Virus record (IMG/VR): IMGVR_UViG_3300020438_004615
Span: 1 to 24,087 of that record
Direction: 5' to 3' (one strand)
Length of the DNA: 24,087 bases
Source of the DNA: a virus
Shown here piece after piece: positions 2,080-24,087 of this stretch. Below the pieces are notes generated by a model, which did not search any database, was not told the DNA's origin, and saw nothing but the letters and a program-made list of their open reading frames with translations. The position numbers were made by a program, and so were the translations under genes. The first letter of the stretch is position 1; each line of letters opens with the position of its first letter.

Positions 2080-2085
2080 TATTTA
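2080..2085 (-). promoter_or_regulatory. late-promoter-like TAAATA box for lysozyme
   Basis: ACTAAATACTTTT on the minus strand, 27 nt before the lysozyme ATG. The leader it would produce contains the AAGGA ribosome-binding site. It is back to back with the plus-strand box at 2095-2100. Confidence 0.5.
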
Positions 2086-2094
2086 GTAAGCAAA

Positions 2095-2100
2095 TAAATA
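2095..2100 (+). promoter_or_regulatory. late-promoter-like TAAATA box for kinase-like gene 1
   Basis: CAAATAAATA followed by TTAGT and the ATG at 2106. The 5-nt gap would place a T4-type start site on the A of the ATG, giving a leaderless message. No Shine-Dalgarno site is present. Confidence 0.5.
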
Positions 2101-2105
2101 TTAGT

Positions 2106-2846: not shown

Positions 2847-2848
2847 AA

Positions 2849-2854
2849 TAAATA
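2849..2854 (+). promoter_or_regulatory. late-promoter-like TAAATA box for kinase-like gene 2
   Basis: AAAATAAATA, GATAC, then the ATG at 2860. The 5-nt gap is the same as for copy 1 and again there is no Shine-Dalgarno site. The box lies just after the stop codon of copy 1. Confidence 0.45.
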
Positions 2855-2859
2855 GATAC

Positions 2860-3585: not shown

Positions 3586-3612
3586 CGCTCTATCCAACTG
3601 AGCTACGGGCAG
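3536..3612 (-). tRNA. tRNA-Arg(GCG)
   Basis: Minus strand, 77 nt. Acceptor CTGCCCG pairs perfectly with CGGGCAG. D-arm GCTC/GAGC, with A in the GGATA loop (an arginine identity element). Anticodon stem TCAGT/ACTGA with loop TTGCGGA gives anticodon GCG. The T-arm GGTGG/CCTCC has a central T-T mismatch. Discriminator G and CCA are encoded. It would read CGC and CGU. Bacteria normally use ACG (inosine) for this box, so GCG is odd. The gene overlaps the ends of both neighbouring protein genes. Confidence 0.88.
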
Positions 3613-4180
3613 TTATTAGAGGCTGTTCCATTCTATTTTTAATATCTTCATAGAATGCTTCAACTAATATTTCAATGGCTTTTGTCTCAGGTATACCCCT
3701 ACTTCGAAGATAGAATACTTGCTCTTGATCTAATGGTCCTGTTGTAGCACCATGTGAGCATATAGTATCGTCATTTTTAATGTCTAGTTCTGGTTTTGAA
3801 AATGCAAAAGAATCATCGTCTAACAATAAATTTTTATTCAACATATGACTTTCACATCCTGTGACACCTTTTGGAATAGTAATTTTTCCTTCAAAAGAAC
3901 TTTCACATTCTTTATTAACAAATCTAAAATCTTGGTCACACTTTGATTTTTTGCCTTTGTGTGTTACTGTTGTAACTACTTTTGGGTCTCTTCCTTTGTT
4001 ATGGAATAATCCATACATTTCGCAAGAAGCATTCTCTTCTAAATCTACATTAATCTTTACGTCAACTCCGGCACGATCATAGAAAAATAATCTAGCAACT
4101 GCATTTGTTTTCAATGTATAGTTTAAAACTGTGTCTTTATCTAAATTTATGGTTTCTGAATAAACGTCTGTTATTTCCAT
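3590..4180 (-). CDS. sufD: truncated SufD-like Fe-S cluster assembly protein
   Basis: 196 residues against about 420 for E. coli SufD. Only the C-terminal half of the beta-helix and the terminal helical region are present. The diagnostic end CSHGATTGPLDQEQVFYLRS (residues 141-160) matches SufD, including the conserved H143 next to C141 that lies at the SufB-SufD cluster site. SufD pairs with SufB and the ATPase SufC as a scaffold for building Fe-S clusters. No sufC is seen in the window, so host SufC may be used. The ATG overlaps the sufB stop (TAATG), so the genes are translationally coupled. The TAG stop (3590-3592) lies inside tRNA-Arg(GCG); the last residues (TARSSVG) are encoded by the tRNA. 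Confidence 0.8.
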   Translation of the reverse strand: MEITDVYSETINLDKDTVLNYTLKTNAVARLFFYDRAGVDVKINVDLEENASCEMYGLFHNKGRDPKVVTTVTHKGKKSKCDQDFRFVNKECESSFEGKITIPKGVTGCESHMLNKNLLLDDDSFAFSKPELDIKNDDTICSHGATTGPLDQEQVFYLRSRGIPETKAIEILVEAFYEDIKNRMEQPLITARSSVG

Positions 4181-5628
4181 TATCCTACAGAACCTTCCAT
4201 ACTGACTTCTAATAACTTGTTGGCTTCAACAGCAAACTCCATAGGAAGTTTTTGAAACACTTCTTTACAAAATCCTGATACTAATAAGTTAGTTGCGTCT
4301 TCTTCGTTTAAACCTCTTGCTCTCATATAAAATAATTGCTCTTCATCTATTTTAGATGTTGTGGCTTCATGATTACATGTACTCTTTCTTGTTTTACTGT
4401 CAATGTAAGGAATAGTTATAGCAGAACATTCATTACCCATCATTAAAGAATCACAGGCAGTAAAGTTTTTGGCTCCTGTTGCACGTTTGCCAACTTGTAC
4501 TAATCCTCTATATGTGTTAGTAGATTTACCTGCAGAGATACCTTTTGATATAATTGTACTTTTGGTATTCTTTCCAAGATGTATCATTTTAGTACCTGTG
4601 TCTGCCATTTGATATCCATTGGTCAATGCTACTGAATAAAATTCTCCAATTGAATTATCTCCTTTTAATATACAAGAAGGATACTTCCATGTTAATCTAC
4701 TTCCTGTTTCAAACTGTGTCCAAGTTATACGAGAGTTTTTTCCTTGGCATAAACCTCTCTTGGTTACAAAGTTATAGATACCACCTTTGCCTGTTTCTGG
4801 ATCTCCCGGATACCAATTCTGTATTGTTGAATATTTTATTTCTGCATCTTTCATAGCAATCAATTCTACATTGGCCGCATGTAATTGATTTTCGTCACGC
4901 ATTGGTGCTGTACAACCTTCTAGATAACTTACATAACTGCCTTCATCAGCAACAATCAAAGTTCTTTCAAACTGTCCTGTGTTTGATGCATTGATTCTAA
5001 AGTATGTTGAAAGTTCCATTGGGCATCTTGTGTTTTTTGGAATATAAACAAATGTGCCATCTGAAAATACTGCTGAATTAAGTGTAGCAAAATAATTGTC
5101 TGAACGTGGAATAACTTTACCTAAGTATTTTTTAACTAGATCAGGATACTTTTGTACTGCTTCTCCAAATGAACAAAATATAATTCCTTTTTCTAATAGT
5201 TCTTTGTGATATGTTGTTGCTACTGACACAGAATCAAATACTGCATCAACGGCCACACCTGCCAATGCCGCCTGTTCTGATGTAGGAATACCTAACTTTT
5301 CAAATGTGGCAAGTACTTCTGGATCAACTTCATCCATAGACTTTAATTTTGGCTTTGGTTTTGAATAGTAACTTATGCCTTGATAATCAATAGGATCAAT
5401 TTCAAGGGTGGACCAATCTGGTTCTTTCATTTCCGTCCAACGCCTGTATGCTTTCAATCTATAGTCCAACAACCATTCTGGTTCGTTTTTCATTTTTGAA
5501 AGTCTTGTGACTATTTCTTCATTAACACCTGGTTCGAAAGTTTCACTTTCCACATCAGTAACAAAGCCAGCACTATATTCTTTGGCTAGTTTGTCTTCAA
5601 TTTTTTTTCTATCTTTTACTTCTGGCAT
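4180..5628 (-). CDS. sufB: SufB, Fe-S cluster assembly scaffold
   Basis: 482 residues, close to full length (E. coli SufB is 495). SufB is the scaffold on which sulfur and iron are assembled, in a SufBC2D complex in the cytoplasm. Conserved motifs: [18 protein letters not shown] (C239, equivalent to E. coli C254), [11 protein letters not shown] (C392, equivalent to C405), [10 protein letters not shown] (H420, E421) and [17 protein letters not shown]. All key residues are present, so it looks functional. The ATG has no Shine-Dalgarno site, and a TAAATA box ends 10 nt before it. SufD follows with a 1-nt overlap. A complete SufB in a phage is unusual and fits the many radical SAM genes here. Confidence 0.95.
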
Positions 5629-7853: not shown

Positions 7854-8297
7854 TTAGTTTCCTATTAGTTTTTTTATTGTATCAATTGAATACTCTCTTG
7901 CACCTTCATCGTCACCATCACATTCAAGTGTGTCAACTATTCTAGTTGCTCCAAGCTCTTCCATACGTTTGTCAATTTTCTTAGGACCTCCACAAAAATA
8001 AGTGTGCGAACTGTCTCCTAACCCACAAATACCATAATTAATGTTGCTGAGATCTATGTCAGTTTCTGATAGTTTATCAAAAAATTCTTCGCCATTAGAA
8101 GGAATATCGCCTTGCCCTGTAGTACTGGATACAAATAATACATTTTTCATCGTTTTAAATGTATCAATATCAACATCGTTCATTTCGCTTATCTCAATAT
8201 CAGCACCTAATTCTTTTGATGTACTTTCAAATACATCGTTGGCTACATCTTCTGCTGTGCCAAACATTGATGCCCATAATATGTTTACTTGTGTCAT
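7854..8297 (-). CDS. flavodoxin
   Basis: 147 residues, the usual length of a short-chain flavodoxin. FMN phosphate loop SMFGTAED (residues 10-17), second FMN loop SSTTGQGDIPSNG (57-69), and third loop GLGDSSHTYFCGG (92-104). The wording is closest to the MioC/CysJ-type group. It carries single low-potential electrons; in bacteria reduced flavodoxin starts the reductive cleavage of S-adenosylmethionine by radical SAM enzymes. A matching NADPH-flavodoxin reductase is encoded at 14157-14915 and five radical SAM genes lie in the same window. Shine-Dalgarno AGGAAG precedes the ATG. Confidence 0.93.
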   Translation of the reverse strand: MTQVNILWASMFGTAEDVANDVFESTSKELGADIEISEMNDVDIDTFKTMKNVLFVSSTTGQGDIPSNGEEFFDKLSETDIDLSNINYGICGLGDSSHTYFCGGPKKIDKRMEELGATRIVDTLECDGDDEGAREYSIDTIKKLIGN

Positions 8298-8770: not shown

Positions 8771-10033
8771 ATGGAGTTAGATATCAAAACATTCTGTCAT
8801 TTACCGTTTACATCTGTTTGGATAGGTGGAACTGGCCTAATGAATCCTTGTTGTAAAGCCGATCTTCATCAACAAAAAGAATATCAAATTCCACATCACA
8901 ACATAGATGATTATCTGAATTCAAAAGAATTAGCACAACTAAAAAATGATTTAGTAAAAGGTGTAAAAAATCCTGCCTGTAATGCTTGTTGGAACGAAGA
9001 AGCACAAAAACGGATATCAAAAAGACTTGAACAACAACTTTTTCAGGATTGGCAAAACAAAAAGTTTATTCCAATGAAACACAATACCAACACCTTGTCC
9101 TTGCAACTTACTAATTTATGTAACCTTGGCTGTAGAATGTGTCACTCGTTTTCTAGTTCAGTTATTGAAAAAGAAGATATAGAAAATAGTAATTTGTATT
9201 TCAGCAAAAAGTATGGTAGCTCAGAAAAGCCATATTGGCATCATAAAGAGGAGTATTTTGATGATTTAAAAAAACAAAAAGATTGGTGGGCAAACAAGAA
9301 CTTTTTAAAACAAATTTACGATATATTGCCTAACATTACATATATAGATGTGTCAGGTGGAGAACCATCTATTAATAAAACTTTTATAGATATACTAGAT
9401 TATTGTATTGATAATGATTTTGCCAAAAACATAGATTTAACTGTTACCACAAACGGACAGCAGATAAATCCAAAATTGATAGAAAGATTAAATAAATTCA
9501 AAAAAACACAATTGATTGTTTCTATCGACGGTTACAAAGATACATATGAGTATATCAGATATAAAGGCTCTTGGGACAAACTTGTAAAAAATATTAAAAT
9601 TTTTCAAAAATATTCAAAAGAAAATCTTTCTTTAATGTGTCACATGACTGCTCAAGTGTTAAACATTTTAAACTTACCGACACTGATAATTTGGCTTGAA
9701 AAAAACAATGTTGATTGGAATACCATTGATATTGTTTTTAGGCCAGACTATCACAACATACGATTATTAACCCAAGATGTTAAATCTGTTGCACTTAAAA
9801 AATTTGAAGAATTAAGACAACAACACACATTTAGTTTTAAAAAAAAATTACTAATAAGTAATATTATAAAAGCATTGAAAGTTAACGACCAAAAATATGC
9901 AGATGAGTGGTGGCCATATTTTGTAAGAGATACTAAATTAAAAGATGAAATAAGAAAACAAAGTCTTGAAAAATCTGTTCCAGAACTGTATAATATAATA
10001 AAAGAAAGATACACTTTTAAAAATGAAACTTAA
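8771..10033 (+). CDS. radical SAM protein with N-terminal auxiliary Cys region (rSAM 1)
   Basis: 420 residues. The SAM-cluster motif is LTNLCNLGCRMC (C117-x3-C121-x2-C124), with SGGEP at about residues 196-200 for SAM binding. Before the core, four or five cysteines (C9, C27/C28, C70, C73) in the patterns FCHLPF, NPCCKA and CNACW look like an auxiliary Fe-S site of the twitch/SPASM type, placed at the N-terminus. The C-terminal tail has the motif LKDEIRKQSLEKSVPEL, shared with rSAM 3, rSAM 5 and the orphan at 23666. The substrate is unknown; relatives modify peptides or small molecules. Shine-Dalgarno AGAGGA. It overlaps rSAM 2 by 11 nt. Confidence 0.85.
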   Translation: MELDIKTFCHLPFTSVWIGGTGLMNPCCKADLHQQKEYQIPHHNIDDYLNSKELAQLKNDLVKGVKNPACNACWNEEAQKRISKRLEQQLFQDWQNKKFIPMKHNTNTLSLQLTNLCNLGCRMCHSFSSSVIEKEDIENSNLYFSKKYGSSEKPYWHHKEEYFDDLKKQKDWWANKNFLKQIYDILPNITYIDVSGGEPSINKTFIDILDYCIDNDFAKNIDLTVTTNGQQINPKLIERLNKFKKTQLIVSIDGYKDTYEYIRYKGSWDKLVKNIKIFQKYSKENLSLMCHMTAQVLNILNLPTLIIWLEKNNVDWNTIDIVFRPDYHNIRLLTQDVKSVALKKFEELRQQHTFSFKKKLLISNIIKALKVNDQKYADEWWPYFVRDTKLKDEIRKQSLEKSVPELYNIIKERYTFKNET

Positions 10034-11138
10034 AAACATAGTATTCTACGAACTGGAACTAACATCAAAGTGTAATGCTAGATGTCCTGGTTGTTCTAGA
10101 ACTATCCATGGTGATACACACCCAGGACTAGATATGCTTGATATTTCTATTGACTACATTAAGAAGATTTTTCCACCGGAAGCAATCAAAGGAAAAGAAT
10201 TTGGATTTAGTGGTGTATATGGTGACCCTGGAATGAATAGAGATCTATACGACATCTGTAAATATTTTTTAGAAAATGATTGTGGTCCTATTGTTATTGA
10301 TACCAACGGTGGTATGCAAACAGAAGCATTCTGGAATAGACTATCTAAATTAAGTTCAGAACATACCATGCGACTGTGTGTAAAATTTAACATAGATGGC
10401 TACGAAAATACCAATCACTTGTACCGTGTTAATGTTAATTGGAAAAAATTAGTAAAAAACATAACTGCATATTCACGAGGTGGTGGACGAGGAGTATGGC
10501 AATACATTGAATTTGATCATAACGGCAATGATATTGATAGAGCAAAACAACATGCAAAAGATATTGGATTTGATTTTCATGTAAGAAGATCAGCAAGAAA
10601 TCAATCTAAAAAATCTTGGAAGTCTGTTGCTAAGAAAAAAGAAGATGGAAAAATTATAGAAAAACAAAATACAGTAACGTCTACTAAAAAACAAATATTG
10701 CATAAGCATTCACAGGCAAAATACAACATCACACAAAAAATAGATCATATAAAAGACACAAAGTTTACAGATATCAGTTGTAGACTGCTTCACGAAAAAC
10801 GTGTGTATATTTCACATGATATGAGGTTATGGCCTTGTTGTTGGTTTGGAGATATGCACAAGGATAATATTAGAACTGATAATGTTCAAAAGGGCAGACA
10901 AAAACTATTTGATTTAGAAAACAAATATGGTAAAAATTGGAACGACTTATCTAAATATTCAATTGACGAAATATTGCAACACGAATACTATTCAAAAATT
11001 TTACAACAATCTTGGGATACTGAACACGAATTTTATATCAAAAGATGTGTAATTGAGTGTGGCGGACACGGATCTAGATCAAAAGTTGAAGTTGAAATAA
11101 AAGAACTTGCCAACATGTCAAAATCTGATTCTAATTAA
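10023..11138 (+). CDS. radical SAM protein with C-terminal SPASM-like domain (rSAM 2)
   Basis: 371 residues. The motif TSKCNARCPGC gives C17-x3-C21-x2-C24. The SAM-binding GGEP position is replaced by GVYGDP (about 64-69). A C-terminal cysteine set (C253, C272/C273 in WPCCW, C342, C346) has SPASM form, normally holding one or two auxiliary 4Fe-4S clusters that contact a substrate. A lysine-rich linker (about residues 190-235) is inserted between the domains. SPASM enzymes such as anaerobic sulfatase-maturating enzymes and peptide modifiers act on protein or peptide side chains, which suggests, but does not prove, such a target. Its ATG lies inside the end of rSAM 1, so the two are made together. 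Confidence 0.85.
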   Translation: MKLKNIVFYELELTSKCNARCPGCSRTIHGDTHPGLDMLDISIDYIKKIFPPEAIKGKEFGFSGVYGDPGMNRDLYDICKYFLENDCGPIVIDTNGGMQTEAFWNRLSKLSSEHTMRLCVKFNIDGYENTNHLYRVNVNWKKLVKNITAYSRGGGRGVWQYIEFDHNGNDIDRAKQHAKDIGFDFHVRRSARNQSKKSWKSVAKKKEDGKIIEKQNTVTSTKKQILHKHSQAKYNITQKIDHIKDTKFTDISCRLLHEKRVYISHDMRLWPCCWFGDMHKDNIRTDNVQKGRQKLFDLENKYGKNWNDLSKYSIDEILQHEYYSKILQQSWDTEHEFYIKRCVIECGGHGSRSKVEVEIKELANMSKSDSN

Positions 11139-13494: not shown

Positions 13495-14160
13495 TTACAC
13501 TAAATTTTCTTTTTGAAGAACGTACTGTTTGTATTTGGCTATACTTCTTTTGATTAGATTGCGATGTTCTGATTCAATTACTTTGCCTAATACAAATCCA
13601 ACAATTCGATCATCATCAACAACATCTTTTACATCAACACCATGTGGCTGTGTACAGTTGTTAATTAAAAATGCATCTGTTTCTTGAGGTATAGTACAAA
13701 ACCATTTTTGTTGAGTACTCATATCTTTTGTGTAATCATATTCTTTGCACATATACAATGTATCTCTCGAACCACTCACAACAAATCTATATCCAATTGG
13801 CTCATTAGCCAGTTGATGATCTAACATGTCTTGAGTTATTGTCATATGATGTCCAGGATAGGGTGACTCAACATAATTGCCATCCACATGTGGCTTTACA
13901 TTACCTGTTGACCTTGCTAGTCTTACATAAAACTTATATTCAAATGGCAGGTGTTTATCAATCCATTGTAATAGCTCAGGATATTTTTGTTTTGCCATAT
14001 CATTCCAAGATTTCATTTCTCCAAAAGGTTTTGAAAAATCTTTCTTACCCATTAATGTTTCTTCATCCCAACACACAAATTTTTCTTTCCCATCAAAGTT
14101 ATCTAGTATTGATTGCTTGTTTGGTATTGGTGGTATATCTAATGGTGTAAATATTGTCAT
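13495..14160 (-). CDS. 2OG-Fe(II) oxygenase-like protein, last gene of the large operon
   Basis: 221 residues. VKPHVDGNYVE gives H91-x-D93. QPHGVDV gives H173 and DDDRIVGFV gives R185, completing an iron and 2-oxoglutarate triad plus anchor at the usual spacing. Also present is the YKFYVRLARSTG strand that precedes the HxD turn in this superfamily. It would hydroxylate an unknown substrate. The ATG overlaps the TGA of the reductase gene (ATGA), so it is the last of twelve coupled genes. Confidence 0.65.
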   Translation of the reverse strand: MTIFTPLDIPPIPNKQSILDNFDGKEKFVCWDEETLMGKKDFSKPFGEMKSWNDMAKQKYPELLQWIDKHLPFEYKFYVRLARSTGNVKPHVDGNYVESPYPGHHMTITQDMLDHQLANEPIGYRFVVSGSRDTLYMCKEYDYTKDMSTQQKWFCTIPQETDAFLINNCTQPHGVDVKDVVDDDRIVGFVLGKVIESEHRNLIKRSIAKYKQYVLQKENLV

Positions 14161-14915
14161 CTTTGTACAAATGCCTTTTCAACTACAAAATGTGCTGGTG
14201 TAGAAGTATTACCTTCTTCCATACCAAGTGATTCAAAATATTCAATTAAGTCTTTGTTCAATCCTTGTGATCCACATATCATAAATCTATCATCCTGCGG
14301 ATCTAGTGATTGGTTAATTGTTGTATGAAATAAATTATTATTTTTAATCCATTCCGTAATTCTACCTGTGTGTTTCCAATCTTGTTGTGTTAGTGTGTTA
14401 AAGTACCTAAAGTTTCCTAGTGTTACTTCTTGCCAATCATTGTTGAAAGTTTCTAACATGTCTTTATATGCTAGTTCGTTTTCGTATTGTACTGTGTGTG
14501 TTAACACAACCTTATCAAAACGTTCATATGTTAATGGATCTTTGATAATACCCATATACGGTGCTAATCCTGTGCCAGTTGCAATTAAATACAAATTACG
14601 TCCAGGCAACAAATAGTCAATCACTAGTGTTCCGGTCGACTTGCTGTTTATTAGAACTTCGTCACCTTCTTTGATATGCTGTAGTTTAGAAGTCAAAGGT
14701 CCGTCTTCTATCTTTATAGATAAGAATTCTAAAAAGTCTTCGTGGTTAGCAGAAGCAACAGAATATGCTCTCATTAGTTTTTTGCCTTCATGCTGTAGGC
14801 CCATCATAACAAACTCACCGTTGTTAAATTTTAGTGGAAAGTTTCTTGTAGTGCGAAACGAAAACGTTTTATCGCTCCAGTGTTTCACCTGCAAGACTGT
14901 TTCTTTATTGATCAT
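14157..14915 (-). CDS. fpr: flavodoxin/ferredoxin-NADP+ reductase
   Basis: 252 residues, typical Fpr length. FAD-binding motif RAYSVAS (residues 49-55), NADP-binding glycine loop ATGTGLAPYMG (112-122), nucleotide-contact motif FMICGSQGLNKDL near residue 220, and the bacterial Fpr C-terminus HFVVEKAFV that stacks on FAD. It passes electrons from NADPH to flavodoxin or ferredoxin in the cytoplasm. With the flavodoxin at 7854 it makes a complete NADPH-to-radical-SAM electron path. AAGGAG lies 7 nt before the ATG. It sits directly after rSAM 3 in the operon, which supports a role in feeding it. Confidence 0.93.
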   Translation of the reverse strand: MINKETVLQVKHWSDKTFSFRTTRNFPLKFNNGEFVMMGLQHEGKKLMRAYSVASANHEDFLEFLSIKIEDGPLTSKLQHIKEGDEVLINSKSTGTLVIDYLLPGRNLYLIATGTGLAPYMGIIKDPLTYERFDKVVLTHTVQYENELAYKDMLETFNNDWQEVTLGNFRYFNTLTQQDWKHTGRITEWIKNNNLFHTTINQSLDPQDDRFMICGSQGLNKDLIEYFESLGMEEGNTSTPAHFVVEKAFVQR

Positions 14916-16287
14916 TAAAATACTCCTTTAGTAGTTCCCATTCTTCAGGACAACTGTCCTTAAATTTTTGCTTTCTAATCTTATCCAAAGCATTAGTATA
15001 ACGTACAAAATCTTTGATTGCAACCAAATCATCTTCTTTTTTATTTCTGTATGACAAATATTTAATTTTATTTGTCCAATCTTTTTTAAAACCTTTTGGT
15101 AGTTGATTAATTATATCACTACTCTTATATATGTTAATTAATTTATCTTTGACTGCATTTGGTAATAATTTAATATCAAGATATTTTGGCATGGAAACAT
15201 ATGATGGGTGTGTTCCACTTTCATTTAAATCTGTTTCGATAGCATATTTTGCCATAAACTCAAATTGTTTTATCATACTAATAACTGTGTATGTTTGAAA
15301 TGTAATACTAAAGTCTAAAGTTATTGTATCTGAATGTTTCTTAATTAACTCTAACGCATTCTCTATTACTTTCCACCTAGCAGGATATCTTACGTACTCA
15401 TAACTGCTTCCATATCCGTCTAAACTGATAGACAATGCAACATTTTTAAAATGTACAAAATAATCTTCAATCATTTCTTTTGTGATTTTTGTAGCATTTG
15501 TTATGATATGTAATTGGATTTCTTTTGATAATTTCTTGTCAATTAATCTTTTTAAAACTTTAAACAAATTAGAAATAAGCAATGGCTCACCTCCTGTAAA
15601 TTTTAAAAACACTGTGTTGTCAATTACTTTTTCAAATGATTCAATAAAATTATCTTTTTCAAAGTATCTAAAATTCAAATGTTTATCTTCTGCTACTTCT
15701 AATATTCTGTTGGCATCTCCACGACTAAACTCTTCAAGTTCTGGATTGCTGATAATTTCTTTTAATATTTGTGAACTGCTCATGTAATCACACATTCTAC
15801 ATTTTAAATTGCAAAGGTTACCAAACTTTATATCAAAATTTATTGGAGCAGGTGATGGCGTAATAAAATTATTTTTTATTGCTTTGTTGGCTTCATTATA
15901 AATGTATGTTCTTAGTTGCTTGTCATTACGTATAGAATCTACTTTTTGAGATCTAAAAGACGGAATTCCTATGTCATCTTTTTCCTTACATTCAATACAC
16001 TCTACAGGATAAGAATTACTGCCTAGCATCTTTCTTGATTTTTTTAAGTAATTAGAATTCCACCATTCTTCTATTGAGTTATTTGATTTAGAAACTTTAA
16101 TTGAGTTAGGTGGAGGCGTGGCTATACAACAAAGTTTTTGATTACCAACAGTATCAATGGTTGAATGATAATAAAGCAATGGGCAAAAGGATTTAGACTG
16201 CTCAGATAATTTATCAAAGTCTTCTGCAGAAACTTTCTTTTGCCAATTAACTTTTAATTTTTTACTAGACTTTTCTGGTGTTTCCAT
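14905..16287 (-). CDS. radical SAM protein with N-terminal auxiliary Cys region (rSAM 3)
   Basis: 460 residues. SAM-cluster motif FGNLCNLKCRMC (C159-x3-C163-x2-C166), with FTGGEP further on. The N-terminal cysteines SFCPLLYY (C35), KLCC (C53/C54) and ECIECK (C97, C100) are placed as in rSAM 1 and rSAM 5, so it belongs to the same subfamily. The C-terminal tail contains LDKIRKQKFKDSCPEEW, a version of the shared tail motif. The substrate is unknown. It overlaps the dehydrogenase gene by 23 nt upstream and the reductase by 11 nt downstream. It is the longest radical SAM protein here. Confidence 0.85.
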   Translation of the reverse strand: METPEKSSKKLKVNWQKKVSAEDFDKLSEQSKSFCPLLYYHSTIDTVGNQKLCCIATPPPNSIKVSKSNNSIEEWWNSNYLKKSRKMLGSNSYPVECIECKEKDDIGIPSFRSQKVDSIRNDKQLRTYIYNEANKAIKNNFITPSPAPINFDIKFGNLCNLKCRMCDYMSSSQILKEIISNPELEEFSRGDANRILEVAEDKHLNFRYFEKDNFIESFEKVIDNTVFLKFTGGEPLLISNLFKVLKRLIDKKLSKEIQLHIITNATKITKEMIEDYFVHFKNVALSISLDGYGSSYEYVRYPARWKVIENALELIKKHSDTITLDFSITFQTYTVISMIKQFEFMAKYAIETDLNESGTHPSYVSMPKYLDIKLLPNAVKDKLINIYKSSDIINQLPKGFKKDWTNKIKYLSYRNKKEDDLVAIKDFVRYTNALDKIRKQKFKDSCPEEWELLKEYFNDQ

Positions 16288-17479
16288 ACTCTACAACTGT
16301 ACAACCTTCTATTTGTGGACACTGCCTCCACGGATCAATAATATATGATCCTTGTGGAAAATTATAATTTGCTGTGTCGTCTGTTCCATAAGTTACATTT
16401 GGGTTATGGGCCAACAAGTAAACTGCTGTACCTAAATCTTTAGGTGGATGATCGCCTGTGTGTTCATCTTGATAATATAAAGTTCTACCCGCTTTTTCAA
16501 TATAGTGTCCAATTAGCAAACTGTATGATCCATTAGTGTATGGTACATGAGGTTTATATGCTTTGCCTACAATTACGATTGGTAAGTTATATGACATTAG
16601 TTTTTTAGCAAGATTTTCTGCTTGTACTTCTCTTGCACCCATGATAGCATCAAACAAATCATAACCTAAGCCTAAATGGTCTGCCATCCATCTTAAAGCA
16701 ATATTATCACGTGGGTGACAAGCACCACCGTCGCCCATACCTGCTGTCATATATTTTGGTCCCATAATACGCATATCAGAAAATGCAAGTGCTGACGTTA
16801 CTACATCAACGTTAATATTTCCTTGTTTCTCTGCTACGTCTTGAATCATGTTTACCAAACCAATCTTTGCTGAAATAAATGTGTTATAAAATATTTTAAT
16901 TGATTCACATTCATCCCAAGTACCAACTACATATCTTGGATTGTTTTGCATCATTGGTTTGTAAAAATCTATAAGTTCTTTTGCATCACCAGTTTTTGAT
17001 CCATCTTCTGTACCAATCATAATCATTTCTGGATTTACCATATCCCATTTAACTGAACCCATTGCAATCAAGTAAGGATTATAAACAAAACGTGCATTTG
17101 TAATCAATGGCTCAAGCTCACGTCTTGTTGTGCCAGGCAACACAGTTGATATAAGAACTACTAATTGTTTTTTATTAACAAATTGATTAACTTCTTGTAA
17201 GATGTTTTTTACAATTGTATAATCAAAATCTTTTGGTTCTAAATGTGCTGTTGGTGTTGACCCATCATACCGTGGATCATGTGGTGTTGGTGCCGCAATA
17301 AAAACAATGTCTTTACCTTTAACTGTTTCTTGTATAGTTGATTGCATTTTAAAGTTTTCTGGCTTTCTTGGTTCCACATCGTAGCCTTCTACCATGTATT
17401 GCTGTGCCATGACTTCAGCACAATCTTGTCCTAATTTACCGCAACCAATCATTGCAACTTTTGTATCTTTTATTTTCAT
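16265..17479 (-). CDS. nucleotide-sugar (UDP-glucose/GDP-mannose) 6-dehydrogenase-like protein
   Basis: 404 residues. NAD-binding GCGKLG (12-17), VLISTVLPGTTRRELEP in the middle, K195 and N199 in SIKIFYNTF, and the catalytic-cysteine loop MGDGGACHPRDN (C254). The usual PKD is PRD here. A C-terminal second Rossmann half (VIVGKAYKP) is present. The family oxidises the C6 hydroxyl of a nucleotide sugar to a carboxylate with two NAD+. It lies between a carbamoyltransferase and a radical SAM gene, which suggests that a modified sugar or sugar-like molecule is made. The exact substrate is uncertain. ATGA overlap with the carbamoyltransferase. Confidence 0.85.
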   Translation of the reverse strand: MKIKDTKVAMIGCGKLGQDCAEVMAQQYMVEGYDVEPRKPENFKMQSTIQETVKGKDIVFIAAPTPHDPRYDGSTPTAHLEPKDFDYTIVKNILQEVNQFVNKKQLVVLISTVLPGTTRRELEPLITNARFVYNPYLIAMGSVKWDMVNPEMIMIGTEDGSKTGDAKELIDFYKPMMQNNPRYVVGTWDECESIKIFYNTFISAKIGLVNMIQDVAEKQGNINVDVVTSALAFSDMRIMGPKYMTAGMGDGGACHPRDNIALRWMADHLGLGYDLFDAIMGAREVQAENLAKKLMSYNLPIVIVGKAYKPHVPYTNGSYSLLIGHYIEKAGRTLYYQDEHTGDHPPKDLGTAVYLLAHNPNVTYGTDDTANYNFPQGSYIIDPWRQCPQIEGCTVVEYGNTRKV

Positions 17480-18966
17480 GAATATACCCTCACTTTGTGT
17501 TGTTGTTCAAATGCATCTGCGTGTTGTCTAGTATTTACCAGTGGCTCGCCTTTGATGTTTAGGCTAGTGTTTAGTAATATTGGACAACCAGTTTGATCAT
17601 AGAACTTTTTAATTAAATTATAAAATCCTGGTGCTTCTTTTTGTGTTACTGTTTGTACACGAGAAGTACCATCAGCATGTATTATTGCTGGAAACTCTTG
17701 TGGCTTTCTACATATAGCAACTGCCTGCATGTAAGGAGATTCAGTAATGCCTCCTGGCATTGTAAAGTACTCGTGTACATGTTCTTCGAGTATGGCAGGA
17801 GCAAAAGGTCTAAACTTTTGTCGTTTTTTAATATCATTTACTCTATCTTTGATTTCACCTCCCCTTGGGTCTGATAGTAATGATCTATTACCTAATGCTC
17901 TTGGGCCAAACTCTGCTCTACCACTTGCTACTCCAATAATGTTTCCATTTGTTAGAGCTTCGCAGGCAGTATCAACAGGATAGTTACCTTCAATATTTGT
18001 GCCTAAAAAAGGACCTTGCCAATTTAGTTTATCACCATAACCAAGTGCGGCCGCTCCTAATGAGTTACCTGCGTCACCTGGATTAGGCATGATCCATATG
18101 TTTTGATTTTTAGTATACATTAATGAGTTGGCTACACAATTAAGTGCAACTCCGCCCATCCACACAATATTCTTTTGTGAACTGTAAGAACGTGCTATTT
18201 CAAACAGTGTAAGAATTTTCTTTTCAATAACCAATTGTATTGATGCCGCAACATCATATGAAAACTGATGATCAAGCAATGGCATATGAGCCATCCATTC
18301 TTCAATACCAGCATGTACGTTCATTTTTAATTTTAAAGGATCTTTTGTGTCAAAAAAGTCTTTTTCAATTTGCTCTGCATACTTTGGTTCTCCATATGCC
18401 GCCATACCCATTAAAATATATTCTTCTTCGTTTGCTTTCAATCCAACTCTCTGTGTAAATGCTGAATACAATAAACCTAATGAGTGCGGATACTGATATG
18501 TTTTTAATCTTTTTAAATCGTTTGGTGCTGTGTATTCCCATATTGATATAGTGTCAAACTCTCCAATAGCATCAGCAACAATAACACAGGCACTGTTGTA
18601 TGGTGATGTGTATGCTCCTGCGGCCGCATGTGCTTTGTGGTGCTCCACATATTCTAACTTATGTGGTACCATATGTTGGAACTGTTTCATATACGTCTTT
18701 GGTAGATTACAACTTTGAAATACTTCTCCCCATTGCCCAGCAACCATTTGTCTGCGTTTCTTTAGCCAAGGTCTTTCGTGCCATATTACACGATCAGGCT
18801 CTCCATATTCTAATGCTTCATTAAGCATTTCATTACATAAGTTTGGATCATTTTTTATTCTTGTGTATCTTTCTGTGTGTCCAGCAAATACTATTTCGCC
18901 ATCTTTGACTACTGATAAAGATCCATCATGTCCTAATCCACATATACCCCAAATTGTTTTACTCAT
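17476..18966 (-). CDS. carbamoyltransferase (NodU/CmcH/TobZ family)
   Basis: 496 residues from the ATG at 18966, which has GAGGG upstream and overlaps the SDR stop by 8 nt. The N-terminal Kae1-like domain has GLGHDGSLSVV and the metal-binding HHKAHAAAG (H109, H113). The C-terminal carbamoyl-phosphate region has ASGRAEFGPRALGNRS, and the end has LLNTSLNIKGEPLV. These are diagnostic. Family members make carbamoyl-AMP and transfer the carbamoyl group to a hydroxyl of a sugar, antibiotic or, as I recall for some viral members, hydroxymethylated DNA bases. No hydroxymethylase or glycosyltransferase is seen in the window. Confidence 0.92.
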   Translation of the reverse strand: MSKTIWGICGLGHDGSLSVVKDGEIVFAGHTERYTRIKNDPNLCNEMLNEALEYGEPDRVIWHERPWLKKRRQMVAGQWGEVFQSCNLPKTYMKQFQHMVPHKLEYVEHHKAHAAAGAYTSPYNSACVIVADAIGEFDTISIWEYTAPNDLKRLKTYQYPHSLGLLYSAFTQRVGLKANEEEYILMGMAAYGEPKYAEQIEKDFFDTKDPLKLKMNVHAGIEEWMAHMPLLDHQFSYDVAASIQLVIEKKILTLFEIARSYSSQKNIVWMGGVALNCVANSLMYTKNQNIWIMPNPGDAGNSLGAAALGYGDKLNWQGPFLGTNIEGNYPVDTACEALTNGNIIGVASGRAEFGPRALGNRSLLSDPRGGEIKDRVNDIKKRQKFRPFAPAILEEHVHEYFTMPGGITESPYMQAVAICRKPQEFPAIIHADGTSRVQTVTQKEAPGFYNLIKKFYDQTGCPILLNTSLNIKGEPLVNTRQHADAFEQQHKVRVYS

Positions 18967-19498
18967 TGTTATCCCTCGCACTTAATGATATAAATTTTAC
19001 TTCTGCTTTATTTTCTATTACCCATTTTACAGTATCAACAATATTTTCACAAGATAATTTATTACCATTGTATTCTTTATTGAATTTTGTATCAACATGA
19101 CCTAAACCCAAAGTTGTGATTTTGCATTTGCGTTGTTGATTTTGTAATAATTCTGCTTGAGCATGTAGTGTCATTTTTTCTACAGGATATTGCCTGTGTA
19201 CTACTTGCCAATCAACGTAAGGAACTGCATCAGTTCCAATGTTAATAATGTGTTTGTTGTCTTGGTCTTTCCACGCATCAAACATTGTGTTTAACATTTC
19301 AGTTTGATTAAAACCATTATGAGCATTGTTTATAAAAACGTCACAGTTCATTGCTTGATGTAATATCATAGTTCTGCCAGTCTGTGTTGAAATGTCATGA
19401 CCAGTATTTCGACTACATCCAATTGAATTTGGAAATGCTTCGTAAATTGCTTTACCAATTCCACTTGTGTGTCCAGTTATTGCTATTTGTTTACTCAT
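18959..19498 (-). CDS. short-chain dehydrogenase/reductase-like protein
   Basis: 179 residues, shorter than the usual 250. NAD(P)-binding TGHTSGIG (8-15), NNAH (57-60), and the active-site pair Y104-x3-K108 in QYPVEKM. The strand that normally ends in catalytic Ser reads HIINIGTDAV, with no serine, so catalysis may be altered or use Thr89. The substrate-binding C-terminal part is short. It may reduce or oxidise an intermediate of the operon's pathway, or have a structural role. It overlaps its neighbours by 8 nt on both sides. Confidence 0.75.
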   Translation of the reverse strand: MSKQIAITGHTSGIGKAIYEAFPNSIGCSRNTGHDISTQTGRTMILHQAMNCDVFINNAHNGFNQTEMLNTMFDAWKDQDNKHIINIGTDAVPYVDWQVVHRQYPVEKMTLHAQAELLQNQQRKCKITTLGLGHVDTKFNKEYNGNKLSCENIVDTVKWVIENKAEVKFISLSARDNNE

Positions 19499-19766
19499 CT
19501 TTTGCTTCTACGTGTATACCTTTTACCCAATGATACCATTCATTAGATTTTGCTTTTGCTTCCTTGTGTAATGGATCAGTTCTCCAAGCATCAACATCTT
19601 CCAAAGTTTTCCAAGAACTGATTGTAATTTCAACATCATCTTTTTCTTCTGATACAAGGTCAATAAATCCTGGCATTGTTTCTGCTTTTTCTCTAACTCT
19701 TTTACTGTAGTCATAATATTCATTGTTAAAATTTTTTATCTTTGCTATAAAAAATACTTTAATCAT
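19491..19766 (-). CDS. ABM-fold (antibiotic biosynthesis monooxygenase-like) protein
   Basis: 91 residues from the ATG at 19766, preferred over one 15 nt earlier because AAGAGA precedes it and it starts at the end of the aminotransferase-like gene. KAETMPGFIDLVSEEKD, then ITISSWKTLEDVDAWRTD and PLHKEAKAKS follow the ABM pattern (xMPGF, strand, W-x-T/S-x-E-x2-x-W, H/A helix). The superfamily is a small dimeric ferredoxin-like barrel that includes cofactor-free oxygenases and heme degraders. Activity here is unknown; oxidation of a small molecule in the same pathway is plausible. Confidence 0.7.
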   Translation of the reverse strand: MIKVFFIAKIKNFNNEYYDYSKRVREKAETMPGFIDLVSEEKDDVEITISSWKTLEDVDAWRTDPLHKEAKAKSNEWYHWVKGIHVEAKDE

Positions 19767-20634
19767 CCAATCTCTTTTCATATGCTGGTGTAAGACATAC
19801 TCTGTTTATTCCGTTTTCTCGTTTGAATCTATCCCATTGCTCATCATGTGTAGTTGCTACCAAATAAGAATCACTAGGAGTAAGATCAAACTTCTCACAA
19901 ATTTTCTTTTGTCGTTCACCGTACTCTTGTTTTTTAGCAAACACTGAACTGTTTATTGTTACTGCCTTAAACACATCAATCATTGCATGATTAAAATATC
20001 CTACACCTTGCAACTCTTGTTGAATTAGTTCTGCTTCTCTAACAAATCTTACACCTGCTCTCAACAGTCCAAGCCCCCAAGGTTTAGAACAACTCCAAAA
20101 CACTTCTTTTACATTTTCATATAGATTTATCTTATGAGGTCCTGTTGTTCCTACAAATGCTAGATCTAAGTATATAGGACATATCTGTCTTGAACCAACT
20201 TCGTCATATCTTCTATCAAAATTCCCTGTAGCACTAAATGGATTACTCATGTATAACGGAACTCCTATTTGTAAATCACTAATTGTTCTAGCAATATTAA
20301 TTGGCTTCTTAACAAATGTAGGATATCTATACTCTCCTTCAAACACTTGATAATTTTTAACTTTGTTACACATCCAATCAATGCTTTCATGTATTCCGTT
20401 TGTTGGATACCCCCATCTTAATTCAGTTAGATCAACAAAAGGTTCTAAAAATGTACGTATTTGATTTTGACAATTTTCCCAACGCACTCTTCTTTTTACA
20501 GATGGTGTTTTATCGTTTTCATTTGTACTTTCAATGTACGACCCATACGTGCTAGTTAACATGTTTCTTATTGTCATGTCAGTTGGCGAGTGTATTGCTT
20601 TACTTTTACCAAATACTTCGTTTGTTATTTTCAT
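19759..20634 (-). CDS. short PLP-dependent aminotransferase-like protein (fold type I)
   Basis: 291 residues from MKITNEVF (the ATG at 20634 follows the upstream stop by 2 nt and has AAAGG before it). The expected signs occur in order: WGYPTNGIHESID (cofactor-phosphate region), YRYPTF, SNPFSATGNFD (N131-P132), the pyridine-N aspartate in YLDLAF (D157), the Schiff-base lysine in SCSKPWGLGLLRAGVRF (K184), with R192. This is the class I/II aminotransferase pattern, but the protein is about 100 residues shorter than usual. It could be a minimal aminotransferase or decarboxylase; substrate unknown. It overlaps ABM by 8 nt. Confidence 0.65.
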   Translation of the reverse strand: MKITNEVFGKSKAIHSPTDMTIRNMLTSTYGSYIESTNENDKTPSVKRRVRWENCQNQIRTFLEPFVDLTELRWGYPTNGIHESIDWMCNKVKNYQVFEGEYRYPTFVKKPINIARTISDLQIGVPLYMSNPFSATGNFDRRYDEVGSRQICPIYLDLAFVGTTGPHKINLYENVKEVFWSCSKPWGLGLLRAGVRFVREAELIQQELQGVGYFNHAMIDVFKAVTINSSVFAKKQEYGERQKKICEKFDLTPSDSYLVATTHDEQWDRFKRENGINRVCLTPAYEKRLDD

Positions 20635-20636
20635 AT

Positions 20637-21299
20637 CTACCTTTGCTTCATATATCTGCATACTTCAACAATTGTTTGCTCATTTACATCAACATTAACA
20701 ACTAGCCAATATGCAGGATCAGGTGTTGTGTTAAAAAGATAATGCATTTTAGCAGTATCAACAAAATATAAAATTCCTTGTTGCCATTGTAAAACTTTGT
20801 CTTCTAATATAAATGTCATGCCAGGAGTGTCACAATTTCTCAACGGCATTATTAATCTAAATGTATCAAGATTTAATTTATTTGATTGATAAAAATCATA
20901 TTCATCCGGATGATCTCTATGTGGAGGAAAAAATCCACCTGTGTTTAATTTTAAAATATGTGTTCTAAATATATGTCCTTCAAATGGTGCTAAACATTTT
21001 TTTAATGATGGCCATTCCATTACTGGTGTTGGTGTTTTAAAATCTCTTTCAGTCCATGATGTATTATTTTCTTTGTTGTATTCATACACACTATCTAAGT
21101 CTGGAATTCCTGTCATGCATCCATCTAAACTTGTGATGCTTAATCCTTGTCTAGGATAATCTTTTCTTGGATTATATTTTACATAGTCAAACTGTTCTTC
21201 AGTCCAATCAATAAATTCAGGAGAATCCTTCATACGAAGTGTTAAAGGATAATGTGCTCCAAATGTTATTAGGTCTCTATATAAACTGTTTTTGTTCAT
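20637..21299 (-). CDS. 2OG-Fe(II) oxygenase (Asp/Asn hydroxylase-like)
   Basis: 220 residues. FFPPHRDHPDEYDF gives H127-x-D129. TFRLIMPLRN supplies R148, and KMHYLFN gives distal H186. GMTFILEDKVLQWQQG forms the strand between them. The pattern matches the aspartyl/asparaginyl hydroxylase-like group of 2-oxoglutarate oxygenases common in marine phages. It lies between the second radical SAM group and the PLP-like gene in a coupled operon, with an ATGA overlap upstream, so a small-molecule or peptide substrate within that pathway is likely. Confidence 0.75.
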   Translation of the reverse strand: MNKNSLYRDLITFGAHYPLTLRMKDSPEFIDWTEEQFDYVKYNPRKDYPRQGLSITSLDGCMTGIPDLDSVYEYNKENNTSWTERDFKTPTPVMEWPSLKKCLAPFEGHIFRTHILKLNTGGFFPPHRDHPDEYDFYQSNKLNLDTFRLIMPLRNCDTPGMTFILEDKVLQWQQGILYFVDTAKMHYLFNTTPDPAYWLVVNVDVNEQTIVEVCRYMKQR

Positions 21300-22456
21300 A
21301 CGTATGTGTTATCTCCTGGCCATAACGGCATTTGTGTTCCTGGTGCTCTTTTTGGTATTTTAGAGTCAGCACTTGATACACAACTTTTTGAAATGCATTT
21401 TTGTGGCTTGTCAAATAATTTAAACCCTGTTTCAATATTTCCAAGAGGTTGATCATGACAACTGTAACTACGTTTTATACTGCCATCTGGTTCTCTAATA
21501 ATGATTGATCTATAACCTGAAGAACATTCCCATCCTTCAAACTTGTTGAAATTAAATGCATTGAATCTTTCTGCTTGGTCCATAAAATGTGGATTTCCAT
21601 CTTTATCTCTAAACTCAACTTGAAAATGTTGTGGAACTCCTTCCGAATATGTTTGTTTCTGCATTGTTCTGTTGTCATCTATTTTAAATGTTGGTTTAGG
21701 TCTTTGTACATGTTTATTTTTTTCTTCTGTGAACCCACGTTGTGGCATTCCGTTGTGTAATTTTTCAAGCATTTCTTTTGAGTACCCATGGACAACTTCT
21801 GACGCTGTTGGATCTGATTGAGCCTTTAGTGTAACATTAATACCTCTATTGTGAAAATATAATGATTCATCATACAATTCATCAAACCATTCCGGAACCA
21901 TAACTTGGTTAATTGTAACTTGTACATCGTGTTCTTGTGCAAAACATAACTTATCGGCAAAGTCTGCTCTTTTTTCTTTTGAGTTAACATGCTCTCTATG
22001 ATATGAAGCAGTAATACTAGCTCTGTGAAACGGTGCAACTGCTTTGACATATTGTTCAAACCATTTCATATTTCTACTGCAATTACTTGTCATATGAACA
22101 GAAGTATAATTAGTATTTTTTGTATCATCAGCGAGATGCTGTAGAATATCAATATAACCAGGATGAAATGTAGGCTCTCCGCCAGAAAGTGAGAAATGGA
22201 AACTATTAAAGCCTCGCTGTCTCGCTTGTCTTTTGATTTCATCAATGGTAGCAAGACAAAGCTCAGTAGGTCTATGATCTTTTCTGTCACTCCTAGCATA
22301 CGGCCAACAGTACGAACACCTATAGTTACAAAACCTACCAAGAAGCCAACTGACTGTAAAAAGATCCCTATAAAGCATAGTACGTTGTCCCACACGTACA
22401 AGATCAGAGTACGGAATTTGTGTAAAATCATATTCACTCCATTTTAAATCACTCAT
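21296..22456 (-). CDS. radical SAM protein with C-terminal auxiliary Cys region (rSAM 4)
   Basis: 386 residues from MSDLKW, whose ATG overlaps the stop of rSAM 5 (ATGA) with AAGGA 10 nt upstream. RFCNYRCSYC gives C43-x3-C47-x2-C50, and HFSLSGGEPTFHPGYI is the SAM-binding turn. The C-terminal region has WECSSGYRSI, YSCHDQPLGNIE, KCISKSC, consistent with a SPASM/twitch auxiliary Fe-S domain. It lacks the N-terminal FC...CW cysteine set of rSAM 1, 3 and 5. The substrate is unknown; it would need flavodoxin for activation. It is one of three radical SAM genes in the same operon. Confidence 0.87.
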   Translation of the reverse strand: MSDLKWSEYDFTQIPYSDLVRVGQRTMLYRDLFTVSWLLGRFCNYRCSYCWPYARSDRKDHRPTELCLATIDEIKRQARQRGFNSFHFSLSGGEPTFHPGYIDILQHLADDTKNTNYTSVHMTSNCSRNMKWFEQYVKAVAPFHRASITASYHREHVNSKEKRADFADKLCFAQEHDVQVTINQVMVPEWFDELYDESLYFHNRGINVTLKAQSDPTASEVVHGYSKEMLEKLHNGMPQRGFTEEKNKHVQRPKPTFKIDDNRTMQKQTYSEGVPQHFQVEFRDKDGNPHFMDQAERFNAFNFNKFEGWECSSGYRSIIIREPDGSIKRSYSCHDQPLGNIETGFKLFDKPQKCISKSCVSSADSKIPKRAPGTQMPLWPGDNTYV

Positions 22457-23673
22457 TGCCAATAGTCCTTAAATTCTGGATACACTTCTAAAAAATTAGT
22501 TTTGTTTAATCTATCCATAGTTTCAATATATTCCTTTGTTGATTTTGGCAACACATCATTGTTTATATCAGTATTATTCATATAGTCTAATACATAGTTT
22601 GACCATTTAATTATTTTGGCCAAACGATTCTCCTTGATATTTTCTAAACTTTCTATTTTATTATAAACTCTTTTTGTTATAATGTCTTTCATTTTCTTTG
22701 GTATATATTGAATATTTAGAGCTTCTGGATATTGTACCAAACTACAATGAAAGGGGCAATCTAAAGATATATAATAATCAATAATATCATCAAATCTAGA
22801 AATATTGTACAACGAAACTGTACATGTTGTTGTTAAATTAAAAACTTCTTGTGGTAATTTAGATTTTAATGTTGTTATATTATCTTCAACTGCTTGTAAA
22901 TTACTTCCTGTTCTTAGATAACTGTGTATTTTTTTATCACCATCTAAACTTACACGACAATTTATCTTTTTAAATTTACTCCAAAGGTCACTGATATGCC
23001 TATCCTTCAATACTATATTGTTTAAATTTGTATTGTATTCTAATGTGATATTGTGGGCATATGGTAATAGTTTTTCTAATGCATCATAGTGTTGTGGCTG
23101 TATCAAAGGCTCGCCGCCTGCTATAACTATTTCTTCTACTCTTGGTCCTATGTCATTTACTACTTGATTAAATGTTTCTATGGGTAATTTTGCTATGCCT
23201 CTCCATGTGCTGGTTTCAGTTAGTTGATATTTGTCAAACAAACGTTTAACCTCATCATGTTTGTTTACTGCTACTGCCCAAGTTGAACTGTATATTGATG
23301 AACAATGTCTGCATCTTAGATCACACACATTACCAAAACGCAATTCAATTGTTTTAACGTTCATTGGTAGTTCACCATCATTTACTTCTTTTAACACTTG
23401 AGGAATATGCTTTTCATAATCTTGATTACACTGTTGCCTAGTTGATATAACATTTGCTTTTTCCATATCCCAACAACTTTTACAACCTTCATGCTGTATT
23501 CCGTTCATCAAGTTATTGCGTATTTTTTTATAATTGTCATTATTCCATATTTCTTTGAGTGTTTTATCTCCATAGTGTCCTAACGAATCATGATTACGCC
23601 AACAAGCACTTATAAAGCCTTTTGGCTTTAGGTTCATGTGTATGAACGGCATTATACAAAAAGTCTTACTCAT
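22453..23673 (-). CDS. radical SAM protein with N-terminal auxiliary Cys region (rSAM 5)
   Basis: 406 residues from the ATG at 23673. The N-terminus MSKTFCIMPFIHMN (C6), SACWR (C24) and GCKSCWDM (C64, C67) precedes the core motif RFGNVCDLRCRHC (C117-x3-C121-x2-C124); IAGGEPLIQP is the SAM turn. Core positions are identical in number to rSAM 1, showing a close relationship. The C-terminal tail MDRLNKTNFLEVYPEFKDY is a version of the tail shared with rSAM 1, rSAM 3 and the 138-residue orphan upstream. It overlaps that orphan by 8 nt. The reaction is unknown. Confidence 0.87.
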   Translation of the reverse strand: MSKTFCIMPFIHMNLKPKGFISACWRNHDSLGHYGDKTLKEIWNNDNYKKIRNNLMNGIQHEGCKSCWDMEKANVISTRQQCNQDYEKHIPQVLKEVNDGELPMNVKTIELRFGNVCDLRCRHCSSIYSSTWAVAVNKHDEVKRLFDKYQLTETSTWRGIAKLPIETFNQVVNDIGPRVEEIVIAGGEPLIQPQHYDALEKLLPYAHNITLEYNTNLNNIVLKDRHISDLWSKFKKINCRVSLDGDKKIHSYLRTGSNLQAVEDNITTLKSKLPQEVFNLTTTCTVSLYNISRFDDIIDYYISLDCPFHCSLVQYPEALNIQYIPKKMKDIITKRVYNKIESLENIKENRLAKIIKWSNYVLDYMNNTDINNDVLPKSTKEYIETMDRLNKTNFLEVYPEFKDYWQ

Positions 23674-24082
23674 CAATTATCTCTGCTAGTTCAGGAAATA
23701 CTCCACGCCAGTCCTCGTTTCTTATGCTATCAAACAGTGCTGTTTTTTCATAGAATTCCTCTGTTAGTTTGTGTGTGTGTTTATTTTGTAATGCATTTTT
23801 TCTTAAATCTTTCCATGATGTATTATTAGATTCTATGCTAGATTGTAAAACTGTAATACATTTATCGTATACTCTGCGTACAATGAGCTTTGTCGCTTCA
23901 TTTTTTAATAGTGTATGCTTGTTATAAAATGGGTCAAACTCACCTTCTAATATTTGTAATATTCTTAATTTTGTGTTGTTTTTTTGATTAGCCACAGCAA
24001 GGTATTTAGGGGTTGACGCAATAGTTGGTTCAAAATTAAGTTTCCGCATACCAAGTTTTTCAATTGGAAAAAATTTTATCAT
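23666..24082 (-). CDS. orphan protein carrying the radical-SAM tail motif (138 aa)
   Basis: 138 residues, family not recognised. No cysteine cluster, nucleotide motif or membrane span is present; one Cys occurs near the middle. It is mixed helical, beginning MIKFFPIEKLGMRKLNFEP. Its end, TALFDSIRNEDWRGVFPELA, matches the C-terminal tail of rSAM 1, 3 and 5. The start ATGATAAAA overlaps what could be a TGA stop of an upstream gene that runs past the window, so the gene is probably complete at 24082, though an extension upstream cannot be excluded. It could be a partner, carrier or substrate protein of the radical SAM enzymes. Confidence 0.6.
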   Translation of the reverse strand: MIKFFPIEKLGMRKLNFEPTIASTPKYLAVANQKNNTKLRILQILEGEFDPFYNKHTLLKNEATKLIVRRVYDKCITVLQSSIESNNTSWKDLRKNALQNKHTHKLTEEFYEKTALFDSIRNEDWRGVFPELAEIIDE

Positions 24083-24087
24083 CCATT

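Follow-up and report, generated by a model that had tools for sequence, protein, structure and literature searches.

What do the radical S-adenosylmethionine (rSAM) enzymes of rSAM-rich marine phages do, and how does the infected cell supply them? Both questions are raised in a concrete form by IMG/VR record IMGVR_UViG_3300020438_004615, whose complete sequence (24,087 bases, the window of this work) covers only part of a larger virus, and where twelve open reading frames (ORFs) of the minus strand run from 24082 to 13495. As judged from its structure, enzyme families and gene order, this series represents a biosynthetic operon that is conserved among T4-like jumbo phages of the sea. Its most likely product is a sugar-type molecule with extensive tailoring, and the phage itself would supply the cofactors of the enzymes, a reading to which we give about an even chance. 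The window overlaps a 69,589-base contig (IMGVR_UViG_3300020469_004256, hereafter G001) that encodes the window genes with 100% protein identity and runs on past 24087. Comparisons were made with three close relatives (G002, G003 and G004) and with a more distant jumbo-phage contig of 328,149 bases (G025), all records being from uncultured viruses and most of them partial. The operon genes, o1 to o12 in the order of transcription, are the following:

23666..24087, minus strand: o1, C-terminal 139 residues of the operon's first gene, cut by the record end (NF033640)
22453..23673, minus strand: o2, N-Twitch rSAM (NF033640, 321 bits, cut-off 170; CX3CX2C present; 69-97% identity in G002-G004)
21296..22456, minus strand: o3, rSAM not of the N-Twitch type (PF04055, 3.8e-13; CX3CX2C present; 89-95% in G002-G004)
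20637..21299, minus strand: o4, putative 2-oxoglutarate (2OG)-Fe(II) oxygenase of the Asp/Asn-hydroxylase type (PF05118, 0.0023, below cut-off)
19759..20634, minus strand: o5, compact fold-type-I pyridoxal 5'-phosphate (PLP) enzyme, aminotransferase-like (conserved residues, structure model, Foldseek)
19491..19766, minus strand: o6, ABM-like small accessory protein (PF03992, 1.6e-4, just below cut-off)
18959..19498, minus strand: o7, short oxidoreductase resembling short-chain dehydrogenases/reductases (SDR), with no Pfam match of its own and homologous to G025 proteins
17476..18966, minus strand: o8, two-domain O-carbamoyltransferase (PF16861, 2.7e-55; PF02543, 4.8e-39)
16265..17479, minus strand: o9, UDP-glucose/GDP-mannose 6-dehydrogenase-like protein (UGD; PF00984 and PF03721 over cut-off)
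14905..16287, minus strand: o10, N-Twitch rSAM, accessory (NF033640, 309 bits, cut-off 170; CX3CX2C present)
14157..14915, minus strand: o11, ferredoxin/flavodoxin-NADP reductase (Fpr)-like protein (PF00175 and PF00970 over cut-off)
13495..14160, minus strand: o12, oxygenase-like protein of the operon's last gene (HxD...H motif by eye; no Pfam or NCBIfam match)

With the longest possible starts, all 11 operon junctions overlap by 4-25 nt, and with the likelier ATG starts the overlaps are 4, 8, 11 or 23 nt plus a single 2-nt gap between o4 and o5, in agreement with the sequence-only reading, which had described a fully coupled twelve-gene operon. The absence of an internal terminator that it had noted is likewise borne out, since terminator-like sites in the region do not exceed those of shuffled sequences (6 on both strands, 4.8 expected). 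Overlap by itself is not special, because dense packing is general in G001, where 36 of the 70 same-strand junctions overlap. The argument that is stronger than chance, and that goes beyond packing, is the conserved order in G002, G003, G004 and G025. Nine genes (o2, o3, o4, o5, o7, o8, o9, o11 and o12) keep the same order in the three close relatives at ~61-97% amino acid identity, and their dN/dS values of 0.05-0.28 in these comparisons indicate purifying selection. G025 also keeps the operon order, with a different Asp-hydroxylase-type gene replacing o4 and a QueC-like PP-loop gene gained before the carbamoyltransferase. The scattering of these genes into unrelated orders, which would have spoken against a functional unit, is not seen in these four relatives. 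In G001 the first gene of the operon lies ~80-115 nt away from a divergently transcribed gene; a T4-type late promoter (TATAAATA) was also considered as a candidate signal, and its occurrence is not above chance. No bacterial cluster with the complete operon was found, and the sole close relative of the cobalamin (B12)-type rSAM described below (83%) lies on a contig of a Puniceicoccaceae metagenome-assembled genome, amid the same phage genes.

That the operon belongs to a phage, as proposed before, agrees with this order and selection and with the T4-type gp23 capsid genes found in G025 and six other records. Moreover, the DNA polymerase in G001 is nearest to those of the jumbo phages Phosso (51%, Sinorhizobium) and Atu_ph07 (46%, Agrobacterium), and G025 encodes a transfer-messenger RNA of the alphaproteobacterial type (L109:14937-15228, 131.6 bits). 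These features make the virus a jumbo phage related to T4, whose host is probably a marine alphaproteobacterium. Matches to the rSAM domain number 22 in G025 and 23 in a further record, G026, versus 0-4 in eight phage records taken as a yardstick. By eye, G025 (L109, L118) also carries translation and chaperone proteins (L11, EF-G, IF-3, S21, DnaK and ClpX).

Most of the enzyme names given in the sequence-only reading were right, the PLP aminotransferase being now backed by a fold search, whereas its count of three rSAM proteins has to be raised to four. Its "orphan" at 23666-24082 is actually the C-terminal 139 residues of a 467-residue N-Twitch rSAM that opens the operon and is complete in G001 (L055:2895-4298; NF033640, 242.6 bits, cut-off 170). 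A PDB sequence search using an N-Twitch rSAM gave no match. The accessory rSAM o10 is without an ortholog in G002-G004, and G025 carries a 31%-identical rSAM at the same position; o6 is present only in G001 and G025 among the five genomes compared. An iterated search groups o4 with AspH-type proteins from the same phages. In o5, residues D166 and K193 are invariant across 11 sequences, and its structure model (pLDDT 73.5) is placed by Foldseek in the CobD/HisC family with probability 1.00 and TM-scores of only 0.45-0.58. One G025 homologue of o7 passes the adh_short cut-off. The reductase of the earlier reading is o11, by its domains an Fpr-like protein, which lies within the operon in all five genomes and is 79-81% identical in all relatives; its best curated match is PRK10926, at 128.7 bits where the cut-off is 390. 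Finally, o12 is 73-77% identical in the relatives, and G003 holds three further tandem relatives of it.

Which product would such a set of enzymes make? A nucleotide, a sugar or a small molecule had been suggested, and the balance now tips towards a product of the sugar type: cultured phages carry their relatives of the UGD and the carbamoyltransferase in clusters of a glycan type, and thymidylate synthase (PF00303) finds no match in G001-G004 and G025, with the limit that these records are incomplete. The catalytic Cys, Lys, Asn and Asp of o9 align with those of UDP-sugar 6-dehydrogenases, and its relatives include proteins of Synechococcus phage Bellamy (73%) and Pelagibacter phage HTVC008M (51%). 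Both conserved domains of o8 carry their motifs, and its best solved relatives are GdmN, the novobiocin carbamoyltransferase and TobZ. Among 50 viral carbamoyltransferase loci, which include near-duplicates so that the counts are not independent, a UGD lies within ~10 kb at 24, and a DegT aminotransferase and an NTP transferase at 10 each. SAR116 contigs carry a relative of the B12-type rSAM (29%) amid genes that by eye read like sugar-nucleotide genes. Uronic acids are known to be amidated in the making of surface sugars (PMC7468200), and it is a speculative thought that this step could fall to the QueC-like gene of G025, or to a NadE-like gene that the same genome carries at another place (55% to HTVC008M).

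In the pathway that we propose, o9 would oxidise a sugar at C6, o8 would O-carbamoylate it, the rSAM enzymes, the PLP enzyme, the SDR and the 2OG-Fe(II) hydroxylases would modify it, and a C-methylation would be added by the B12-type rSAM encoded in the adjacent block. We infer both the sugar scaffold and its destination, a host-surface or virion glycan.

Such a pathway would be demanding in cofactors. Every rSAM enzyme depends on a [4Fe-4S] cluster and on an electron that flavodoxin and Fpr provide in E. coli, and the B12-dependent rSAM methylases require cobalamin in addition. In this regard, the window encodes three candidate supply genes on the strand of the operon, ~5-10 kb beyond its end:

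4180..5628, minus strand: SufB, iron-sulfur (Fe-S) cluster assembly (NCBIfam SufB equivalogs passed, 850 bits, cut-off 717)
3590..4180, minus strand: SufD-like protein, C-terminal half only, 196 residues (PF01458, 1.1e-35; TIGR01981, 139 bits where the cut-off is 222)
7854..8297, minus strand: flavodoxin (PF00258, 6.1e-28)

Among the relatives searched, the flavodoxin gene occurs in three besides the window, and in G025 SufB, SufC (equivalog passed) and a half-length SufD sit inside the block that neighbours the operon. This second co-oriented block, upstream of the divergent gene, holds in G001 a 2OG oxygenase, a B12-type rSAM, a GNAT protein, a TonB-dependent receptor and DUF6580; two desaturases and a gene of the Asp-hydroxylase type lie upstream there too, beside the operon. 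Neither the receptor nor the B12-type rSAM is encoded in the window; for this virus, a single overlapping contig, G001, is the source for both. The 593-residue rSAM has TokK (6.5e-50) and CysS as its nearest solved relatives, the alignment covering only the first ~390 residues. In the receptor both plug and barrel are found, and its six best solved relatives are all BtuB; its gene and that of DUF6580 (L055:7775-10157, minus strand) overlap beside the B12-type rSAM, an arrangement present in five viruses. DUF6580 was considered as an ECF-type B12 component and set aside, as the structure model is too poor (pLDDT 44) and a pattern scan gave no bacterial relative, so that any role for it is a guess. 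No cobalamin riboswitch or other Rfam regulator was found near the B12 genes, and no true BtuB counterpart was seen among cultured phages; BtuB matches in Salmonella "phage" records look like host contigs. The SufB of Microcystis phage MaAM05 was also left aside, its record with panB, panC and a cysteine desulfurase being one that may hold bacterial DNA. As side observations, many gut Clostridia contigs (L123-L148) carry arrays of 2-6 B12-type rSAM genes with ~24-33% identity to the phage one, and the neighbouring block of G026 contains an APS-kinase-like gene (L093:3660-4743, plus strand; PF01583, 3.1e-10) and, by eye, a sulfotransferase-like protein, hints of sulfated products.

By their family assignments, the Suf, Fpr-like, BtuB-like and rSAM genes are physically linked, and this linkage suggests that the support genes serve these rSAMs: SufB/C/D would furnish the [4Fe-4S] clusters, the Fpr-like reductase and flavodoxin would deliver the electrons needed to set off each radical reaction, and the BtuB-like receptor, perhaps with DUF6580, would bring in cobalamin. 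This predicted supply side (Suf, Fpr, flavodoxin and BtuB-like) lay beyond the view of the sequence-only reading. The fullest version, in which the phage runs a self-supplied radical-enzyme pathway with its own BtuB-like B12 import, Suf clusters and Fpr/flavodoxin reduction and with their help produces in the infected cell a novel sugar or small molecule that is carbamoylated and C-methylated, is put forward tentatively, at somewhat less than an even chance. With the supply of Fe-S clusters, electrons and cobalamin physically linked to a definite group of tailoring enzymes, and the arrangement conserved, the role of these rSAMs becomes a testable pathway, as does the question of whether phages steer the vitamin uptake of their hosts; a phage-borne B12 receptor, if true, would bear on the vitamin economy of the ocean.

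Several observations weigh against a self-supplied sugar pathway. In place of the NPEFL glutamate motif o9 has NPYLI, and its substrate may differ. There is no glycosyltransferase or nucleotidyltransferase among the operon genes, so that of the marks of a surface-glycan cluster the UGD and the carbamoyltransferase are present and a glycosyltransferase in the cluster is absent. Extension past 24087 through G001, which had been recommended as a check, brought the second block and the full o1, and PF00535 was unmatched in 24 records; a 246-residue family outside the G025 operon is GT-A-like by eye only, with no Pfam or PHROG match. The receptor scores 186.6 bits with TIGR01779, far under the curated BtuB cut-off of 599.7, and the SufD-like protein of the window, at 196 residues, is short of full length. 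Nor is the kit universal: BtuB was found in only five viruses, and searches for SufB and SufD in G002 and G004 found neither.

Other products would make different sense of the same genes. The operon might modify virion DNA at one of its bases, where the carbamoyltransferase would cap a hydroxymethyl group and the rSAMs and remaining enzymes would build further groups, and a phage carbamoyltransferase making 5-carbamoyloxymethylcytosine is in fact proven (PMC8670742). The proven enzymes, however, co-occur with thymidylate synthase (PMC8670742). None was found near the 50 viral carbamoyltransferase loci (0/50, in incomplete records), a weak match in G026 falls by eye in a gp46-like nuclease, and the G027 match is assumed to do likewise. 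Carbamoyl-cytosine is disfavoured because this partner is lacking, and we regard DNA hypermodification by the operon as unlikely. DNA modification of some kind is suggested by QueD-type genes in five large relatives and by a 508-residue protein that is DpdA/TGT-like by eye (L056:18075-19601, minus strand), yet these genes lie far from the operon, and a 7-deazaguanine modification separate from it is possible. The 508-residue protein is 90-96% conserved in G002 and G025 and 41% identical to "hypothetical" proteins of PA5oct-type jumbo phages, with no Pfam, PHROG or PDB match. The remodelling of host membrane lipids or lipid A, in which LpxO/OlsC-type hydroxylases, desaturases, an acyltransferase-like GNAT and glucuronic-acid chemistry would alter the envelope, fits the two desaturases and the GNAT upstream in G001, the proteins of the Asp/Asn-hydroxylase family, which includes LpxO and OlsC, and an acyl-carrier-like protein seen by eye near the block in L095; it leaves the carbamoyltransferase, the UGD and the N-Twitch rSAMs without an evident role, and the desaturases belong to the neighbouring block rather than to the operon, so that we consider it decidedly unlikely.

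Many known relatives of Twitch/SPASM rSAMs are peptide maturases, and both domains are found here, which would fit maturation of the type of ribosomally synthesized and post-translationally modified peptides, acting on a short precursor or a phage protein. Inside the operon there is, however, no conserved small ORF free of larger genes, and a UGD and a carbamoyltransferase would be out of place, which makes this reading very improbable; in a variant of it, a large phage protein could be the rSAM target. The sequence-only reading, too, had seen no glycosyltransferase, thymidylate-synthase-like or precursor peptide gene in view. The locus could, on the other hand, be a cassette island where separate tailoring genes were collected in a variable region with no shared product, as the variable presence of o6 and o10, the multiplication of o12 in G003, the generally dense packing of G001 and the rSAM cassettes in variable regions of pelagimyophages (PMC7029224) might suggest. 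Against this stand the gene order, shared by nine genes in G001-G004 and by eight of these in G025, and the purifying selection wherever it was tested, and we give such an island only a low probability.

Returning to the tailored sugar-type product, its closest known parallels are the glycan-type clusters of Bellamy and HTVC008M, which likewise join in one co-oriented cluster a UGD of the same family, a carbamoyltransferase and a methyltransferase, with an rSAM ORF directly upstream in HTVC008M. Those clusters differ in holding glycosyltransferase or glycosyltransferase-like genes and a NadE-like gene, none of which is in the operon, whereas the operon adds four rSAMs, the Fpr-like reductase, the PLP enzyme and the hydroxylases, with Suf and B12 genes adjoining. 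The phage 5-hydroxymethylcytosine carbamoyltransferase is of the same two-domain family as o8 and has a thymidylate-synthase/dCMP-hydroxymethylase partner not found here; carbamoyltransferases of unmodified contigs adjoin genes such as glycosyltransferases (PMC8670742). GdmN, TobZ and the novobiocin enzyme share both domains and motifs with o8 in a different overall gene context, and the likeness to the cobalamin-dependent methylases TokK and CysS concerns only the aligned part of the neighbouring rSAM. That viruses bring an Fe-S supply for their own rSAMs has been described before: in a T4-like genome of 183 kb, Nishimura et al. (2017, PMC5332604) reported 12 rSAM genes along with a gene for an Fe-S carrier, and they suggested viral proteins as the clients of viral Fe-S genes. 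That phage shares with ours the T4-like character and an Fe-S gene together with many rSAM genes. Theirs are an A-type carrier and IscU, whereas here we find SufB/C/D, an Fpr-like reductase, a flavodoxin and a B12 receptor candidate beside a B12-type rSAM, and the operon to which these supply genes are linked is conserved and includes UGD and carbamoyltransferase genes. Mention of rSAM cassettes was also found for the variable host-recognition region of pelagimyophages (PMC7029224). The linkage of SufBCD, Fpr and a B12 receptor to one rSAM operon appears to be new in the literature searched, where the titles and abstracts listed offered no relevant match on phage-borne BtuB or on rSAM with carbamoyltransferase in phages; as coverage is partial, this does not establish novelty.

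The remaining features of the window lie outside the operon:

8771..10033, plus strand: N-Twitch rSAM (PF04055, 5.1e-15; NF033640, 286 bits)
10023..11138, plus strand: rSAM (PF04055, 2.6e-5, below cut-off; phrog_21308, 4.4e-15)
809-977 and 3536-3612, minus strand: tRNA-Arg(TCT), tRNA-Leu(TAA) and tRNA-Arg(GCG)

The DNA-level matches to cultured phages that were listed span just one tRNA-Arg. The first tRNA of the window, a tRNA-Arg, has matches of up to 93.5% to tRNA-Arg in T4-like phages of enterobacteria. Finally, two related tandem genes at 2052-3585 (plus strand; 241-264 residues), which matched nothing in a PHROG search, are kinase-like by eye and have 38-56% relatives in G002 and G004.

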